A program made the translations under genes and the position numbers. Below, in pieces: positions 26,203 through 55,710 of a stretch of 55,710 nt of DNA. Source of the DNA: Candidatus Dormiibacterota bacterium (GTDB lineage Bacteria > Chloroflexota > Dormibacteria > Dormibacterales > Dormibacteraceae); assembly GCA_003151935.1 (NCBI GenBank), contig PLYZ01000068.1, positions 1-55,710 of the forward strand. The letters run 5' to 3'. Each line of letters starts with the position of its first letter. The stretch's first letter is position 1. The notes under the pieces are model-generated. The model had not been told where the DNA came from and searched no databases. It saw nothing but the letters and a program-made list of their open reading frames with translations.

Positions 26203-27429
26203 GTGGTGATGCAGCTTTTGGCGATGGCCGGCTGGAGGCGCCTGTTAGTGACCGGGCTGTGCCTCGCCGCATGGCGCGCGCTCGATCAGATTGCAGTTCC
26301 TGGCCTCAACCCGACTGTGATCGCAGTGCTGCAAACCTCGGCGTCGTCGCCTTTGCAGGCGATCGCCGTCAGCACCCCAATCGCATCGAACAGCCTCATC
26401 GCGATGGGGGTCGGGCCGTATGTGGATGCCGTGATCATCATGACCCTGGTGCGGCTCATCTCCCAACGCGTCCGCGCCGTGAGCAACGCCCCCGACGGCC
26501 CCGAGCGCCTGATGCGATGGACGCTGGGACTGGCCATCGTCCTGGCGCTCGGCCAGTCGTACGGCTACACGGTGTTGATGCAGAACACCTATCCGCCCGC
26601 ACTGCCAGGAATGGACTGGTTCGCCCGGCTCTCCGTCATGCTGGCGATGGCCGCCGGCACCGTCACGGTCGTCTACCTCGCCGGGGCGCTGGACGAATTC
26701 GGCCTGGGTTTCGGCAACGGCGTCTTCCTCATCTACGCACTGACCTCAGTTGGAATCGAGGTGCACCGGCTCGCGGAGATCTTTGCGACCGCACCCTCGA
26801 TCGAAGCGCTCTACCTGACCTTCGCCATCTGGGTTGCGTTCTCGATCTCCGTCCTCGCAGCCATCGTCGCGGCGCTGCTCGCAAGCCGGCGGGTGCCGCC
26901 GGCGGGCGAGGAGAGCATGTCGGAGTGGGAACCGGTTGAGCTCCGTCTACTCATGTCAGGAGTTCTGCGACCACCCTTGTTCGCCAACGCGGTCTTGTTC
27001 GTCCCCGTCGTGATCGCCAACTACTACGTGGGAGCAACCCCTGCCCTCCAACGCTGGCTCACTGGTGTCTGGACGCCCTACGGCCCTAACCTGCTGACCG
27101 ACGCGGCCTACGTCATCCTCAACGCCGGCCTGGTCGTTGCATTCGCATACCTGGTCGTCGTGGTCGATGGCTCCTCCAGGCCGATTCGCCCTGACCTGGT
27201 TCCCCATGTCAACCGACTCGTCTTCATCGGTGGGAGCCTGCTGGCGATCACCGTGGTCGTGCTGCCGGTCCTCGAGTGGAACGCAACTCGCCTGGTGGGA
27301 ACAGGCTTCGCGATGAGCGGCCTGGACGCTGCGTTATTGGCCACCATCATCCTGGCGATTGTGGTCGGGCTCGAGCGGTCTGGCCGGCGGGACGCCGGCG
27401 CGCCCCTGCTGGCGAGCCCCGTGCCCTAG
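26203..27429 (+). CDS. Divergent SecY-family translocon protein
   Basis: 408 residues with about ten membrane helices in SecY order. Aligning segments: IAVPGLNPTV (SecY IPIPGID), SLIAMGVGPYVDAVIIMTLV (SecY [20 protein letters not shown]), GTVTVVYLAGALDEFGLGFG ([20 protein letters not shown]) and VLRPPLFANAVLFVP (VIPAIFASSIILFP). The cytosolic loop before that last segment is shortened and lacks the QGRRVY..QSTHLPLKVN region. The loop after helix 8 is only DGSSRPIRPDLV in place of NPRETADNLKKSG..GIRPG. These loops contact SecA and the ribosome in ordinary SecY. It stands alone, with no secA, secE or spc-operon ribosomal genes. Start GTG 26203 (GTG 26206 and ATG 26209 also possible). Confidence 0.8.
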   Translation: MVMQLLAMAGWRRLLVTGLCLAAWRALDQIAVPGLNPTVIAVLQTSASSPLQAIAVSTPIASNSLIAMGVGPYVDAVIIMTLVRLISQRVRAVSNAPDGPERLMRWTLGLAIVLALGQSYGYTVLMQNTYPPALPGMDWFARLSVMLAMAAGTVTVVYLAGALDEFGLGFGNGVFLIYALTSVGIEVHRLAEIFATAPSIEALYLTFAIWVAFSISVLAAIVAALLASRRVPPAGEESMSEWEPVELRLLMSGVLRPPLFANAVLFVPVVIANYYVGATPALQRWLTGVWTPYGPNLLTDAAYVILNAGLVVAFAYLVVVVDGSSRPIRPDLVPHVNRLVFIGGSLLAITVVVLPVLEWNATRLVGTGFAMSGLDAALLATIILAIVVGLERSGRRDAGAPLLASPVP

Positions 27430-29339: not shown

Positions 29340-30767
29340 GTGAGACGCGTGCCATCCCCACACTTCGGCCACTGGCGGGAACACTTCGCGGGCGTTGACC
29401 TGCCGGTACCGATCGCCGGCGGCGCCACCGTCACGGGGGTCAACTTCGACAACGCCGCCAGCACGCCGCCCCTCAAGCGAGTACGCGACGCCGTCAACGG
29501 TTTCTCGGACGTCTACTCGAGCGTTCATCGCGGCACCGGCTACAAATCGCGCCTCGCGACGGAGGCATACGAGCAAGCGCGTGAGCTCGTCGCACGATTC
29601 CTGAGCGTGGACCCTCAATCACAGGTGGTCATCTTCGTCAAGGGCACGACGGACGCCCTCAACCGGATTGCCGCCGGGCAGTCTCGGCTCGATGGCAGGC
29701 AGGTGCTGGTCACAGAGATGGAGCACCACGCCGACCTGCTGCCCTGGCGACATCGCAGCGGCCACGTGATGGTCGGCCTCTCCCCGGATGGGCACATCGA
29801 CCTCGCGGCGATCGAGCACGCATTGACGGAAGGCAAGGGAACGATCGGTCTCGTCGCGGTGTGTGGGGCGTCCAATGTCACGGGCTTCGTCTCACCCATC
29901 CACGAGATCGCCGAGCTTGCCCACCGTCACGGCGCCCTTGTCTCGATCGACGCGGCGCAGCTCGCGCCGCATCACCGCATCGACATCGGCCCGGCGAGTG
30001 ATCCTGGACACCTGGACTTCGTGTCCCTCTCGGGTCACAAGATGTACGCGCCCTACGGCGCGGGCGTCCTTGTCGCGCCGCGCGACTTCTTCGCCGGCGC
30101 CCCCGAGGTCATGGGCGGCGGGGCGATCAGCATCGTGACCTGGGACGACACCGTCTGGGCGGACCTGCCCGACCGTGAGGAGGCCGGTTCACCGAACGTC
30201 ATCGGGGCCGTGGCCCTCGGCGTCGCGATCGAGACCCTCCTCGAGCTGGGATTCGACGAGATGCTGCGTCACGAGGTCGAGCTGGGCCAGGCGCTGCACT
30301 CGCGCCTGCGCGGCATCCCAGGGGTTGGAGTGCTCGGCGGAGCCGAGGCACCCGGCGCCGCGCCGCGCCTGGGCCTGGCCAGCTTCGTCGTGGACGGGCT
30401 CCATCACGGACTGGTCGCGGCCGCCTTGAGCCACGAGTGGGGAATCGCCGTCCGCAACGGCTGTTTTTGCGCGAACCCGTATGTGTTTCACCTGCTCCAC
30501 ATGGACAGGCGGGAGGTCGAGGCGGTGGAAGGCGAGGTCACCTCCGGCCATCGCAAGGCGCTGCCCGGCGCGGTGAGGGCCAGCCTCGCGCCCTACAACA
30601 CTGCCCTTGAGCTGGACCGGTTCGTCGAGGCGATCACCCAGATCGCGCGGGGAAGGCTCAAAGCCACTTACGAGCAGGCCGCCGACGGCACCTTTTCGCC
30701 GGCGGGCGGCTGGCCGCGCATTGCGAGCCCGCTGAACACACTGGTCAAGATAGGAGGACACAAGTGA
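29340..30767 (+). CDS. Class V aminotransferase (cysteine desulfurase-like)
   Basis: 475-residue PLP enzyme. FDNAASTPP near the N-terminus, EMEHHADLLPW, the PLP-Asp motif SIDAAQLAPH, and the Schiff-base Lys in SLSGHKMYAPYGAG are all present. A Cys-containing segment, NGCFCANPYVFHLL, corresponds to the region of the catalytic Cys of SufS-like desulfurases but is placed differently. About 60 C-terminal residues exceed the family norm. No suf or isc genes are nearby, so the role may differ from Fe-S assembly. Starts: GTG 29340 or GTG 29349; TAGGCT lies at 29332-29337. Confidence 0.85.
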   Translation: MRRVPSPHFGHWREHFAGVDLPVPIAGGATVTGVNFDNAASTPPLKRVRDAVNGFSDVYSSVHRGTGYKSRLATEAYEQARELVARFLSVDPQSQVVIFVKGTTDALNRIAAGQSRLDGRQVLVTEMEHHADLLPWRHRSGHVMVGLSPDGHIDLAAIEHALTEGKGTIGLVAVCGASNVTGFVSPIHEIAELAHRHGALVSIDAAQLAPHHRIDIGPASDPGHLDFVSLSGHKMYAPYGAGVLVAPRDFFAGAPEVMGGGAISIVTWDDTVWADLPDREEAGSPNVIGAVALGVAIETLLELGFDEMLRHEVELGQALHSRLRGIPGVGVLGGAEAPGAAPRLGLASFVVDGLHHGLVAAALSHEWGIAVRNGCFCANPYVFHLLHMDRREVEAVEGEVTSGHRKALPGAVRASLAPYNTALELDRFVEAITQIARGRLKATYEQAADGTFSPAGGWPRIASPLNTLVKIGGHK

Positions 30768-30955
30768 TCAAGGTCATCGTCGAGGTGCTGCTGGCGATCT
30801 TCCTGCACCCCATCGCCTTCGTCCTCTGCGTGATCAACATCGTCAACCGAAGCGATCTGAGCGGTTTGTGGAAGGTGCTGTGGATCATCATCAGCTTCTT
30901 CTGGGGCATCGGTCCCATCCTTTACATCCTGCTCGGACGCGGCAAATTCTGGTAG
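30764..30955 (+). CDS. Small two-helix membrane protein (PLDc_N-like)
   Basis: 63 residues with two hydrophobic segments, VLLAIFLHPIAFVLCVINIV and LWKVLWIIISFFWGIGPILY, separated by NRSDLSGL and ending LLGRGKFW. The pattern resembles the phospholipase D N-terminal membrane domain found as small stand-alone proteins. The GTG start overlaps the aminotransferase stop (GTGA), so it is coupled to it. Confidence 0.7.
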   Translation: MIKVIVEVLLAIFLHPIAFVLCVINIVNRSDLSGLWKVLWIIISFFWGIGPILYILLGRGKFW

Positions 30956-31067
30956 CCGCCCAGGTGGGCGCTGAGGTCTGGCAACTTTTGGTGGGCAACC
31001 CATCCGACTCCAAGCCGCGTAACAGGGTTTCCTGAGCCGGGCTTGGGCTAATCTGGAGGTGGATAGG

Positions 31068-32918
31068 GTGGGTAGCCGACCAGATACCCGGGTGCGGACG
31101 CGGGTATTGACCAACGGAGCCGTAAACGGCGCCACCAATGGCGCCGCGAACGGAGGCGCCACCAACGGGTTGCACCCAAAGAAGAATGGGGCGGGCAGTC
31201 ACCGCCCGGCGACCAAAGGCGCAGCGACTCAGCAGCCGGTGGTCAAGCTGGCCCGCGTAACCAAGACTTTCGGCAAGACAGCCGTCCTCACCGAAATCAA
31301 CCTGTCGGTCGCACCGGGAGAGCTGGTCGAGATCACAGGCCCGAGCGGTTCGGGCAAGACGACCCTCCTCCGGCTGGTCCACGGGCAGCTGCGGCCGAAC
31401 GCCGGGCAGGTCTGGGTCCAGGGGCGCGGCTTGCACCGTTGGTGGCGCCGCGGCCTGAGCCGGGTCCGCCGGGACGTGGCCTTCGTGTTCCAGGAGCACC
31501 ACCTCCTTCCCCGGCTCACGGCGCTCGAAAACCTGACGCTCGCGCTCCAGGTCACCCAACCTCAGCTCCCATTCAAGACGATCAAGCGGCGCGCTCTGGA
31601 AACCCTCGAATCGTTGGGCCTGGTCCATAAGCGGAATTCCTACCCCCGCCAACTCTCGGCAGGTGAGCGCCAGCGCATCGCGGTCGGCCGGGCTCTCGCT
31701 GCGAAACCGCGGGTCATCCTTGCCGATGAGCCGATGGCTTCGATCGACGACGACAACGCCCGGATCGTGATGCGCCTGCTCGAGGACGCCGCGGCCGGAG
31801 GCGCCGCGGTCATCGTCGCCAGCCACCGGCACACCTTTCCATCCAGCCGCGTCCTGCGCCTCCCAAGCGGCAAGATCCATCTGAACGGTTCGCAGAAGGC
31901 GGCTTCAAATGGAAACGGCACCCACGCAGCGCAACCGCTCTGGCGCCTGCTGCTTCCCATCAACGAGCGACCGCGCAAGCAGGTGCTCAAGCCGAAGCAG
32001 CTTCCGCTGTGGCGCCGCGCGGTGGCGTTGGTCGCGAACAGCTACCGGCTGGTCGTGTTGAGCGGATTGCGCAGCTGGAGCCGCGACATACGCCTGACGG
32101 CGCCGGCAGTTGGAACCATGGGCCTGCTCCTCTTGCTCTGCGGGACGCTGTCCATGGTGGGGATCGCCATCAACCATGTGGCGGTCCAGCAGGCTTCGCA
32201 GGCTTCGCTCGTCCGTGTCTACCTGGCGCCGGACTCGACGCCTGAGGCGGTCGCGTCACTCAAAGCGCGCTTGATCGCCGACCCGCGCGTTTCCTCCGTC
32301 ACCGAGGTGACTCCCGAGCAGGCGCTCGCCGAGGCGAGCAGCCGGCCGGGGCTCGACAACCTGGCCAGCCTCAGCACTACCAACCCCTTCCCCGCCAGCC
32401 TTGACGTCCAGGTCCACATGGTGACCCAGGTCGGAGCGGTGGCGGCTTCCGTCAAGGACGACCCGGCGGTCGACCCCTCGTATCCGACCTCTTACGACCC
32501 CAACACGTACTCCCGACTCGGACACGTCGCGCTGGTGGTGGGAGGCATAGCCGCCGGCCTGGTCCTCCTGTTCGGGCTGGTCGCCTACGCCGTGATGGCG
32601 AACTCGATGCGCGGGATCGCCACCGCTCGGCGACAGGAGGTGGCTGTGATCCGCCTGCTGGGCGCCCGCGGCTGGATGCTGCGAGGGCCCTTCGTCGTCG
32701 AGGGCCTGATGACCGGAGCGCTCGCCGGGGCACTGGCCGCGGCAGCCGTCGCGGGCGCCTGGCTGCTCGCCACCAGGTTCGAGTCAGCGACTTATGCCCA
32801 GCTGCTACCGGGCGTCGACGCAACCGCCGTCCAGTACATCCTCGCGGCCGTCTTGGCCGCCGGGCTGCTGCTCGGTGCCCTTACGGCGATGCTTGGGTTC
32901 CGCAAAGCGCACGCGTGA
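31068..32918 (+). CDS. FtsE-FtsX fusion protein
   Basis: 616 residues combining an ABC ATPase and its membrane partner in one chain. Residues 1-57 are low complexity, with repeated NG units. The FtsE-type ATPase (about 58-280) has Walker A GPSGSGKTT, Q-loop FQEHHLLPRLTALENL, signature LSAGERQR (usually LSGGEQQR), Walker B VILADEP and H-loop ASHRH. A linker leads to an FtsX part with helix 1 at about 344-368, an outside domain with NPFPASLDVQVH, and three C-terminal helices. FtsEX controls cell-wall hydrolases at division, and the overlapping next gene is such a hydrolase. GTG 31068 has GGAGG 8 nt upstream; GTG 31059 is also in frame. Confidence 0.9.
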   Translation: MGSRPDTRVRTRVLTNGAVNGATNGAANGGATNGLHPKKNGAGSHRPATKGAATQQPVVKLARVTKTFGKTAVLTEINLSVAPGELVEITGPSGSGKTTLLRLVHGQLRPNAGQVWVQGRGLHRWWRRGLSRVRRDVAFVFQEHHLLPRLTALENLTLALQVTQPQLPFKTIKRRALETLESLGLVHKRNSYPRQLSAGERQRIAVGRALAAKPRVILADEPMASIDDDNARIVMRLLEDAAAGGAAVIVASHRHTFPSSRVLRLPSGKIHLNGSQKAASNGNGTHAAQPLWRLLLPINERPRKQVLKPKQLPLWRRAVALVANSYRLVVLSGLRSWSRDIRLTAPAVGTMGLLLLLCGTLSMVGIAINHVAVQQASQASLVRVYLAPDSTPEAVASLKARLIADPRVSSVTEVTPEQALAEASSRPGLDNLASLSTTNPFPASLDVQVHMVTQVGAVAASVKDDPAVDPSYPTSYDPNTYSRLGHVALVVGGIAAGLVLLFGLVAYAVMANSMRGIATARRQEVAVIRLLGARGWMLRGPFVVEGLMTGALAGALAAAAVAGAWLLATRFESATYAQLLPGVDATAVQYILAAVLAAGLLLGALTAMLGFRKAHA

Positions 32919-34216
32919 GACGAACCTGGGCCTCGGCCGTCGTCCTCGCGAGCTTCGTGGTGGGCATCCAGGTCTCCGCCGTGAGCGCAACCGACGCCTC
33001 CCCGTGCCCGTCGCCATCGGCCGCATCCGCGGCGCGCACCGGCTGCCCGGCGGCTGCGACAGATCCGAACCAGGCCGCCTACGACCTGCTCCGCTCGCGC
33101 CTCGGAGGAGACCTTGCCACCTGGTTGACGACCCAGGAGCGCCTCAACGCGGCACTCGACCAGACCTCAGCCAGCGTGCAGATCGTGACCGACCAGATCA
33201 CCCAGGAGGAGACGGTGATCGCAAACCTGGAGGACCAGATTGCGCAGCTCGACGCGCAAATCCAGGATACCCAGGATCGGATCGACGTCGAGAAACAGCA
33301 GGTGGCGGCGATGGCCCTTGCGATCTATCGCCAGCCGGACTCGCTGTGGATGCTGGTCGCGCGCACGGGAAACCTTCGCGATGCACTGCAGGCGACTGCC
33401 GACATGGTCGTCGCCGGCCAGCGAGCCCACGCCCTCCAGGCGAGACTCGAAGCCGACCTCATGAAGCTTCAGGCCGACCGCGACGCTCAACAGGCAGACC
33501 TCGATCGCGAAAATGCGACGCAGGACAGCCTGGTCACAAGCCTGAGCACGCTGAGTGACCTGCTGAGCACGCAGACCGACATCACCAGCCAGATGGCGGA
33601 TGTCATCACGCAGCTGCAGGACGCTCAAAACGCGCTGACGGACCAGCCGCCGGAGGTGACAGCAGACCTCGCCACCGTCCTCGAGTCACAGGAGCAGGAC
33701 CTGCTCCAGCAATCGAACCAGGCGGCGTGGGACCAGGCGCACGTCGGCGAGGGCCAAGCGCTGATCACGCACATGCTCCCGACGGGCGCGACCATCGCGG
33801 GCCTGACACTTTCGTGGCCGATGGTCGGAGGCCGAGTCACCCAACCTTTCGGACCGAGCACTCTTTTGCTCGAGCCCCCGCTCGGCCCGTACGCGCACTT
33901 CCACACCGGCATCGACATCGCCGCGCCGTTCGGTACCACCGTGATGGCTGCCGCGGCCGGCGTCGTCGTCGCGGTCGGCCACTCTAACGTCGGCTACGGC
34001 AACTACGTCGTGATCGGGCACGGCGGCGGCATCATGACGCTGTACGGACACCTGCTCGAGACCGATGTCGTCGTTGGGAATCTGGTCGCGCGCGGACAGC
34101 GGATCGGGCTCGAGGGATCGACCGGGTGGTCGACCGGCCCGCACGTCCACTTCGAGCTGCGCGTGAACGACTCGGTCGTCGACCCGATGCCGTACCTCCT
34201 GAGGTCAGCAAGCTAA
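32915..34216 (+). CDS. Secreted coiled-coil M23 peptidase (EnvC-like)
   Basis: 433 residues: signal peptide (about 1-25), long coiled coil (about 70-240, rich in Gln and Asp), and a C-terminal LytM/M23 domain (about 300-425). Zinc ligands are visible as H330 and D334 in HTGID and H412 in GPHVHFEL, so unlike E. coli EnvC it looks catalytically intact. The GTG start overlaps the stop of the FtsE-FtsX fusion by 4 bp. By analogy with FtsEX-EnvC and FtsEX-RipC/PcsB, the ATPase would drive activation of this peptidoglycan endopeptidase through the coiled coil. Confidence 0.92.
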   Translation: MRRTWASAVVLASFVVGIQVSAVSATDASPCPSPSAASAARTGCPAAATDPNQAAYDLLRSRLGGDLATWLTTQERLNAALDQTSASVQIVTDQITQEETVIANLEDQIAQLDAQIQDTQDRIDVEKQQVAAMALAIYRQPDSLWMLVARTGNLRDALQATADMVVAGQRAHALQARLEADLMKLQADRDAQQADLDRENATQDSLVTSLSTLSDLLSTQTDITSQMADVITQLQDAQNALTDQPPEVTADLATVLESQEQDLLQQSNQAAWDQAHVGEGQALITHMLPTGATIAGLTLSWPMVGGRVTQPFGPSTLLLEPPLGPYAHFHTGIDIAAPFGTTVMAAAAGVVVAVGHSNVGYGNYVVIGHGGGIMTLYGHLLETDVVVGNLVARGQRIGLEGSTGWSTGPHVHFELRVNDSVVDPMPYLLRSAS

Positions 34217-34226
34217 TTTAGCTTCG

Positions 34227-34255
34227 ACAGACTGGTGCAAAAAACAGACTGGTGC
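34227..34255. repeat. 12-bp direct repeat overlapping the tRNA 3' end
   Basis: ACAGACTGGTGC at 34227-34238 and again at 34244-34255. The second copy contains the complement of the tRNA 3' end GCACCA. The T6 run between the copies (minus strand) probably ends tRNA transcription. Short 3'-end duplications beside tRNAs can be scars of integration, but no integrase is present. Confidence 0.5.
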
Positions 34256-34325
34256 CCCCGGAGGGAATCGAACCCCCGACCTTGACGTTAGGACCGTCCT
34301 GCTCTATCCCCTGAGCTACGGGGGC
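34250..34325 (-). tRNA. tRNA-Arg (anticodon CCU)
   Basis: 76 nt with encoded CCA. The acceptor GCCCCCG pairs with CGGGGGC. The D-arm is GCTC..GAGC, the anticodon loop GTCCTAA gives CCT (reads AGG), and the T-arm GGGGG-TTCGATT-CCCTC is complete. The anticodon stem is GACG/CGTC, with a G-A mismatch at its outer pair. Confidence 0.95.
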
Positions 34326-54157: not shown

Positions 54158-54871
54158 ATGCGCCCGATCCTCGAGTTCTCCGCCGTGACTCGAGCGTATG
54201 GACCGCGCCTTGCGCTCGATGACGTCCACCTGGCCCTGGAGCCGGGTGAGCTGGCGTTTCTCGTGGGCCCGAGCGGAGCGGGCAAAACCACCCTGCTGAA
54301 GCTGATCAATCGTGAGATCCGTCCCACCGCGGGCGAGGTCTGGGTCGACGGCATCGCGGCGCACACCTTGAAGACATCGCGCGTCTCCGAGCTGCGGCGC
54401 CACGTAGGCGTCGTCTTCCAGGACTTCAAGCTTCTGCCTCGGCTCACCGCAAAGGAGAACGTCGCCCTAGCCCTCCAGGTCGGCGACCTGCGCATCTCAG
54501 ATGAGGAGGCTTCGGAGCGGGCCATGGACGCGTTGGAGGCGGTGGGGCTCGGCGATCGCGGCGGCGCTTTCCCTCAGCAGCTTTCGGGCGGGCAGCAGCA
54601 GCGCGTCGCGGTGGCGCGGGCGGTGGTCGGTCAGCCACGCCTTCTCATCGCGGACGAGCCAACGGGCAACCTGGACCTGGAAACGTCGTGGCAGATGATG
54701 GACCTGTTCGCTGACATTGCCACCTTTGGCACCGCGGTCCTCATCGCGACCCATAACGTCGAGATCGTGACTCGCCTTCAGCGACGCGTGATGACCCTCG
54801 TGCAGGGCCGCCTTGTGCGCGACCAGCCGGCGGGCCGGATCGGGAGGATGGCATGGCTGGCGTCGTCGTGA
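54158..54871 (+). CDS. ftsE: Cell-division ATP-binding protein FtsE
   Basis: 237 residues. Walker A GPSGAGKTTLLK, Q-loop FQDFKLLPRLTAKENV, signature LSGGQQQRVAVARA, Walker B LLIADEPTGNLD and H-loop ATHN are all canonical. Works with FtsX to activate cell-wall hydrolases at the septum. It overlaps ftsX by 19 bp. This is the second FtsE in the window; the other (31-33 kb) is fused to its FtsX. Confidence 0.94.
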   Translation: MRPILEFSAVTRAYGPRLALDDVHLALEPGELAFLVGPSGAGKTTLLKLINREIRPTAGEVWVDGIAAHTLKTSRVSELRRHVGVVFQDFKLLPRLTAKENVALALQVGDLRISDEEASERAMDALEAVGLGDRGGAFPQQLSGGQQQRVAVARAVVGQPRLLIADEPTGNLDLETSWQMMDLFADIATFGTAVLIATHNVEIVTRLQRRVMTLVQGRLVRDQPAGRIGRMAWLASS

Positions 54872-55710
54872 AGGCGCGCTTCCCGCGGCGGCAGATTGTT
54901 CAGGTGGTCGTCGCCAACGTGTTCCGCTACCTGTTCCGCGGCGCGGCTCGCAACTGGATCCGGAACATAGGCAGCAGCGCGCCGGCGCTTAGCTCGATGA
55001 CGCTGCTTCTTCTGCTGTCCGGCCTGGTCGGCCTGGCTGGTTTCGCGCTCCACAACCTCGAGCAGGTACAGGCCGGCCAGGCTTCGCTGCTGCACGTATA
55101 CATGCGCGACGGCGTTCCCTCGGCCGACGTCGACTCGCTTTGGGATCGACTTGCGAAAGACCCGCGCGTCGCGAGCGTCACGTACGTGACCAAATCGGAA
55201 GCACTCGCACGCGCTCAAACCATTCCTGGACTGCCTCAGCTCGCCGCGGCCAGCGACGGAAATCCCTTCCCGGCCAGCCTCGATGTGCGCGTGAAGAGCA
55301 TCAACGATGCGGCTGCAATCGACAGCCTGGTGCGCACCGACATCGCCGTCGACGCACTTGATCCCACTTCGTATGACCGCGGCGCTTACCAGCGCATCCA
55401 GGCGGTGCTGTTCGGCCTCGCCGTGGCCGGCACTGCTTTCCTGCTGCTGCTTGGGTTCGTTGCGGTCACGGTGACCATCAACAGCATTCGCGCCGCGATC
55501 CACTCGAGGCGAGACGAGGTCACGATCATGCAGCTGGTGGGCGCTCCACGCTGGATGGTGCGCGGGCCGTTCGTCGTCGAAGGCGCCATCACCGGTGCCC
55601 TGTCCGGGGCGCTTGCCGGTCTGATCACGTTCGGGCTGGCGATGGCCGGGATGGCGGCGGGGTCAGCGTCATTCACCCAGTTCGCGCCCGGCGTCAGCGT
55701 CACGGTGGTG
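54853..55710 (+). CDS. ftsX: Cell-division protein FtsX, 3' end beyond window
   Basis: 286 residues visible, cut by the window end. Cytosolic N-terminus, helix 1 (about 45-66, SMTLLLLLSGLVGLAGF), outside domain with NPFPASLDVRVKS and LDPTSYDRGAYQRI, helix 2, then RRDEVTIMQLVGAPRWMVRG and helix 3. It is clearly paralogous to the FtsX half of the 31-kb fusion, which shares NPFPASLDV and RGPFVVEG. ATG 54853 overlaps ftsE by 19 bp; GTG 54868 would give a 4-bp overlap. Confidence 0.93.
   Translation, partial: MAGVVVKARFPRRQIVQVVVANVFRYLFRGAARNWIRNIGSSAPALSSMTLLLLLSGLVGLAGFALHNLEQVQAGQASLLHVYMRDGVPSADVDSLWDRLAKDPRVASVTYVTKSEALARAQTIPGLPQLAAASDGNPFPASLDVRVKSINDAAAIDSLVRTDIAVDALDPTSYDRGAYQRIQAVLFGLAVAGTAFLLLLGFVAVTVTINSIRAAIHSRRDEVTIMQLVGAPRWMVRGPFVVEGAITGALSGALAGLITFGLAMAGMAAGSASFTQFAPGVSVTVV

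Follow-up and report, generated by a model that had tools for sequence, protein, structure and literature searches.

FtsEX serves as a standard model for mechanotransmitting ABC proteins, and those forms of FtsEX whose structures are solved are, to our knowledge, all assembled from two genes. In the window analysed here (the whole stretch of 55,710 nt, positions 1-55710 of contig PLYZ01000068.1, G000:C69 in our numbering, from the 2.94-Mb, 97-contig assembly GCA_003151935.1 of a Candidatus Dormiibacterota bacterium), FtsE and FtsX had been read from the sequence alone as a single polypeptide, followed by an M23 peptidase gene. The questions raised by this locus are whether the fusion is real, where it came from and what it could do together with its partner. 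The analysis confirmed a conserved fusion of single origin, carried by an additional FtsEX copy that has an M23 partner.

Fused orthologs were sought in 110 genomes of the class, which comprise four families (f1, a family of uncultured soil bacteria, is that of the source genome), and FtsX_ECD matches were listed for a wider sample of 400 genomes of the phylum. All genomes compared are metagenome assemblies. The units are labelled B (fused), A (a second, unfused type) and C (the canonical unfused type). The Pfam cut-offs are 23.5 for FtsX_ECD and 25.5 for the FtsX permease domain, and the cut-off of NCBI's FtsE equivalog model TIGR02673 is 264.85 bits.

A single reading frame with FtsE and FtsX halves

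The frame from 31059 to 32918 is open throughout without a stop, and would encode 619 residues if read from 31059. The GTG at 31068, the start chosen in the sequence-only reading, is preferred because GGAGG is located 8 nt upstream (Table 1). ABC_tran (117 bits, residues 77-227 of 619), FtsX_ECD and the FtsX permease domain (32.3 bits) all exceed their Pfam cut-offs within this one protein. The residues of Walker A, the signature, Walker B/Glu and the H-loop are invariant in the 24 fused orthologs aligned, so the full set of ABC ATPase motifs described at first sight is present.

The four-helix FtsX was recovered likewise, with both FtsX domains above cut-off and four long helices in the AF2 monomer model (pLDDT 72.8; moderate), which also contains the NBD, a disordered tail (1-53), a disordered linker (274-309) and an elbow helix. 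The linker had been estimated at about 60 residues, and 64 residues separate the H-loop from the "WRR" motif of FtsX, about 36 of which (274-309) are predicted to be disordered. The NG-rich N-terminal tail is there as reported, though it differs among relatives.

Table 1. Coordinates of the fused gene, its M23 partner and the A-type unit in the window
Feature	Position	Strand	Details and basis
GGAGG, likely ribosome-binding site of the fusion gene	31055..31059	+	8 nt before GTG 31068; from sequence
Fused FtsE-FtsX gene	31068..32918	+	616 aa, GTG start, TGA stop; 29 fused orthologs including its own
NG-rich N-terminal tail, residues 1-53	31068..31226	+	Predicted disordered; not conserved
FtsE-like nucleotide-binding domain (NBD), residues 59-272	31242..31883	+	Pfam, motifs, model
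Walker A of NBD	31338-31361	+	Placed by codon arithmetic
Signature LSAGE of NBD	about 31653	+	Placed by codon arithmetic
Walker B/Glu of NBD	about 31716-31733	+	Placed by codon arithmetic
H-loop His of NBD	31824	+	Placed by codon arithmetic
Linker between NBD and FtsX half	31884..32003	+	About 40-44 aa here; length in relatives 20-93 aa; of low complexity and predicted to be disordered
FtsX half	32004..32915	+	Four long hydrophobic helices (341-379, 478-520, 541-570, 585-615) and one extracellular domain; Pfam, model, PDB sequence matches
FtsX_ECD (PF18075) extracellular domain	32211..32474	+	52.2 bits in the genome search and 47.8 in the Pfam scan of the protein, cut-off 23.5
GTGA overlap of fusion stop and M23 start	32915..32918	+	Stop TGA 32916-32918, GTG 32915-32917; NTGA in 26/26 fused loci examined
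Coiled-coil M23 peptidase	32915..34216	+	433 aa, hydrophobic N-terminus, EnvC-like layout; Pfam, profile, model
Coiled-coil hairpin, residues 51-239	33065..33631	+	Conserved tip about 136-175 (AIYRQPDS..ARTGNL..AL); alignment and model
Third helix, 246-285	33650..33769	+	Model; would lie at the position of EnvC's restraining arm
M23/LytM catalytic domain	33899..34186	+	Pfam; H330, D334, H379, H410, H412
Unfused FtsE of A-type FtsEX-M23 unit	54158..54871	+	Unit from C69:54155 onward; FtsE model, genome search
Unfused FtsX of A unit, cut by window end	54868..55710	+	Window end is an assembly gap (NN); M23 just beyond

Conservation of the fused gene

The FtsE-FtsX architecture was searched for in related genomes, as had been suggested together with the first reading, and 29 fused genes covering both domains were found (source genome included; in 2 of the 29 the contig ends within the N-terminal tail). 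They come from several genera and are confined to family f1, the other three families having none among the 110 genomes of the class; no fused copy was found in some genomes of f1. Outside f1, among the matches listed for the 400-genome sample, there is no FtsX_ECD match in an open frame long enough for such a fusion.

The linkers of the 29 genes fall into 18 length classes from 20 to 93 residues, all of them in frame. In seven close pairs, dN/dS is 0.14-0.48 for the linker and 0.05-0.16 for the ATPase and FtsX halves; the fused gene is under purifying selection, linker included. Because the frame is shared by 29 genomes, with all 18 linker lengths in frame and under purifying selection, the fusion is not an artefact, and an assembly or sequencing error or a pseudogene was ruled out. 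A hidden internal FtsX start was also considered, and the scan of the fused loci gave no conserved start with a ribosome-binding site ahead of the FtsX half; therefore the fused chain is likely the sole product of the gene. One fused ortholog, in G032 (L031), is broken by a deletion with a frameshift around the first FtsX helix, which is either an assembly error or a real loss hinting at dispensability.

The surroundings of the locus are also conserved in several genera, with a PucR-like regulator and a class-V aminotransferase upstream, and ferric-reductase-like, Nuo51-like and ApbE genes and a two-component pair downstream. A SecY-family protein (window 26203-27429, +) adjoins the PucR-like regulator, a 63-aa membrane protein with a PLDc_N match (window 30764-30955, +) lies about 110 nt ahead of the GTG of the fusion, and a tRNA-Arg (CCT) (window 34250-34325, -) is located directly downstream of the M23 gene. 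PADLOC matches were discarded as generic ATPase/coiled-coil matches.

The fusion is an additional FtsEX copy

Four FtsX_ECD loci exist in the source genome: the fusion (B), an A unit at the right end of the window, and two near-alike C units on contigs C72 and C8. With the FtsE model TIGR02673, the C, A and B types score 289.6, 251.9 and 192.5 bits, respectively. FtsE is the best model for the fused NBD, although the score is below the equivalog cut-off, so functional equivalence to FtsE would not follow from it. In structure searches, several FtsE structures are among the top matches of the NBD. The fusion is a divergent additional copy and not the organism's FtsEX. A full FtsEX-EnvC/RipC-like device had been proposed for these two genes, and the fusion with an EnvC-like M23 partner stands; what does not stand is a reading of it as the organism's own FtsEX, since the genome also has a canonical FtsEX encoded by two genes, as well as a third unit.

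Genomes of f1 mostly contain three FtsX_ECD loci, and in the class outside f1 nearly all genomes with a match contain exactly one. In the source genome 23 kb separate the A and B units; in G002 and G019 the distance is about 50 kb and about 24 kb, respectively, and this closeness fits an origin of the two by local duplication. The M23 overlap of the fusion, which had been singled out, is present but is nothing special, as most unfused A-type units of f1 overlap their M23 gene likewise.

Several further observations concern the unfused units. Five FtsX_ECD loci are found in G015 (f1), and another unfused FtsEX type in f1 is very divergent with long branches (L085, L088, L092, L093). A 752-aa FtsX-M23 "fusion" in the A unit was rejected as an artefact, since its frame crosses an "NN" scaffold gap at L042:5712 (equal to G000:C69:55711) and the genes of relatives are separate there. 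The canonical C units lie at G000:C8:66888-67625 and C72:3231-3884 and are closely alike. FtsE and FtsX of the C8 unit are identical to those of G002 in the trees, and the contamination of the assembly is 3.85%; one of the two contigs may therefore be a bin contaminant.

Origin of the fusion

Trees were built for FtsX and FtsE separately and jointly, with the broken G032 copy placed with the fused genes. In the joint tree the fused genes, G032 included, form one clade (support 99/96) with one change of state, and there is no reversal to two genes inside it (G032 being a broken copy). The FtsX-only tree leaves the base of the fused clade open.

The sister of the fused clade is G007, from another genus, in which the genes are unfused and the FtsE stop overlaps the FtsX start by GTGA; this FtsE has an NG-containing tail at its end. 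Relatives with FtsE and FtsX as separate genes at this junction had been named as evidence that would speak against the fusion. Such a pair was found in one genome, G007, where it represents the ancestral state of a sister, and the fusion is not refuted. A one-base assembly error might lie behind the split genes of G007, but other unfused pairs nearby, with candidate FtsX starts likewise placed at the -1 overlap, make the same point even if G007 is misassembled. Since the fused clade needs one change and its sister is unfused with a GTGA overlap, the trees indicate that the fusion arose once, from an already coupled FtsE/FtsX pair. Most simply, a duplicated and coupled pair would have gained the FtsE tail before a single fusion. 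In G009, a B-like FtsE and an FtsX are located at the ends of two contigs, and their pairing is not demonstrated.

The M23 partner

The protein encoded after the fusion matches Peptidase_M23 (PF01551) with 107.6 bits. Its AF2 monomer model (pLDDT 68.5; moderate) combines a coiled-coil hairpin and a third helix with the M23 domain. In fold it comes closest to EnvC, both as a chain of the V. cholerae FtsE/FtsX/EnvC complex (E 4e-10) and in the FtsX-bound form. Of the profile matches, only that to EnvC spans the full length (78-427 against EnvC 52-417, coiled coil plus LytM domain). H330, D334, H379, H410 and H412 are invariant in all aligned M23 partners (22 of 22). The contrast with EnvC in keeping the zinc ligands, drawn from the sequence at first, is borne out in all 22, but it does not set the fused locus apart, as the A and C partners of the source genome also retain the motif (zinc-site) residues, read from their sequences.

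In EnvC, FtsX binds the coiled coil at residues 114-160, the LytM groove is closed off by a restraining arm, and the protein no longer has the zinc residues (PMC11627006). Set against this binding site, arm and lost zinc site, the strongly conserved tip and intact zinc residues found here suggest that FtsX would grip the hairpin tip and that the M23 partner would cut the wall itself.

Proposed explanation and alternatives

We consider it probable that the locus encodes a lineage-specific single-chain FtsEX, derived from a duplicated FtsE/FtsX/M23 unit and likely acting as a dimer that gates an M23 hydrolase. The fused frame, its conservation and ancestry, the motifs, the domain similarity and the co-conservation of M23 are observed; the dimer, the coupling, the inhibition, the direct hydrolysis and a task apart from canonical FtsEX are what we infer. 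An FtsE/FtsX/M23 unit would have been duplicated in one Dormibacterota family, in an ancestor with separate FtsE and FtsX genes overlapping by a few bases; FtsE would then have acquired a disordered C-terminal tail, and one loss of the stop/frame boundary would have joined it to FtsX. The chain probably dimerises via its FtsX halves, which would bring two ATPases and two membrane halves together, the usual arrangement of FtsEX. On the cytoplasmic side, ATP would be bound and hydrolysed, moving the FtsX extracellular domains, which would hold the tip of the coiled coil of the M23 protein; the inhibitory helix would be pulled off the M23 active site, and M23 would cut peptidoglycan itself. The FtsEX-hydrolase mechanism used here is taken from PMC11627006.

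As a tentative extension, for which the odds are somewhat against us, no natural single-chain FtsEX would have been described before this one, and one bacterial family would have in it a dedicated additional wall-cutting machine, which covalent fusion sets apart from the canonical divisome FtsEX by insulating its ATPase from other FtsX partners and which serves a separate task (such as elongation, branching or differentiation). FtsEX complexes already contain two FtsE with two FtsX in solved structures, so the idea that the fusion fixes a 1:1 stoichiometry adds little. A natural fused form under selection means that the ATPase does not have to exchange or to work separately from FtsX, and it offers a ready single-chain construct for structural studies and single-molecule experiments. 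With about three FtsEX-M23 units side by side in each genome, f1 also provides a natural test of how cells avoid cross-talk between similar ABC/hydrolase pairs, to which fusion is one plausible answer.

The alternative that survives best, though we regard it as unlikely, is that the fused unit acts in general division, redundantly with canonical FtsEX, and that the fusion is selectively neutral. The free drift of linker length and sequence would agree with this, as would a sister pair (G007) that presumably works unfused and an ancestor that was already translationally coupled, whereas the fused clade shows no return to two genes and its NBD has diverged well away from FtsE. It is less probable still that the M23 protein is an amidase activator like EnvC which retains its zinc site for another reason: EnvC is its best fold match along the whole protein and its only full-length profile match, but EnvC lacks the zinc residues (PMC11627006) that are invariant in all 22 partners here.

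There is little chance that the fusion is a MacB-like export pump (a single chain of NBD and four TM helices) with an incidental M23 neighbour. In whole-chain Foldseek searches MacB structures come first (E about 1e-23), followed by FtsE, and the MacB order is likewise NBD, then permease, in a single chain (PMC5985334). However, the extracellular domain matches FtsX_ECD, with no Pfam match of the fused protein to the MacB periplasmic family; by sequence in PDB the FtsX half is nearest to FtsX of solved FtsEX complexes, ahead of LolF/LolE, and not to MacB; in 26 of 26 loci the next gene is that of M23, joined by an NTGA overlap; and no MacA- or TolC-like gene was seen among the neighbours scanned. 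That an assembly or sequencing error joined two genes, or that the gene is a decaying pseudogene, is hardly credible, since, for all that every genome is a metagenome assembly, G007 has two genes at this junction and G032 is broken, the conservation in 29 genomes, with in-frame linkers under purifying selection and one well-supported clade, refutes this reading across the clade.

Comparison with known systems

No FtsE-FtsX fusion is described in titles and abstracts of the open-access literature searched, and no FtsX work in Dormibacter was found there. Fusion of NBD and permease is already known from MacB, and for FtsEX it is new as far as the open-access literature searched shows.

The FtsEX-EnvC systems of E. 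coli, V. cholerae and P. aeruginosa have in common with this locus an FtsE-type NBD, an FtsX with FtsX_ECD, and a partner with a coiled-coil hairpin and a C-terminal LytM/M23 domain. They differ in that here FtsE and FtsX are a single chain, the zinc residues are retained, the partner gene overlaps the fusion, and the copy is additional to canonical FtsEX. The canonical C-type FtsE/FtsX/M23 unit of the class has the same three domains in the same order, but its FtsE and FtsX are two proteins, its FtsE is above the equivalog cut-off, and it occurs once per genome outside f1.

The hydrolases RipC, CwlO and PcsB are of NlpC/P60 or CHAP type. In FtsEX-RipC (M. tuberculosis), FtsEX-CwlO (B. subtilis) and FtsEX-PcsB (S. 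pneumoniae), direct switching of a catalytic hydrolase by FtsEX has been proposed (PMC11627006, PMC10694151, PMC6705773). Compared with these, FtsEX is fused here and the hydrolase is M23 rather than NlpC/P60 or CHAP (partly PMC11627006). MacB, a type VII ABC transporter, shares an NBD placed N-terminal to a four-helix permease in one chain and is the best whole-chain fold match, whereas the chain described here has FtsX_ECD where MacB has its large periplasmic domain, and is accompanied by a hydrolase instead of MacA/TolC.
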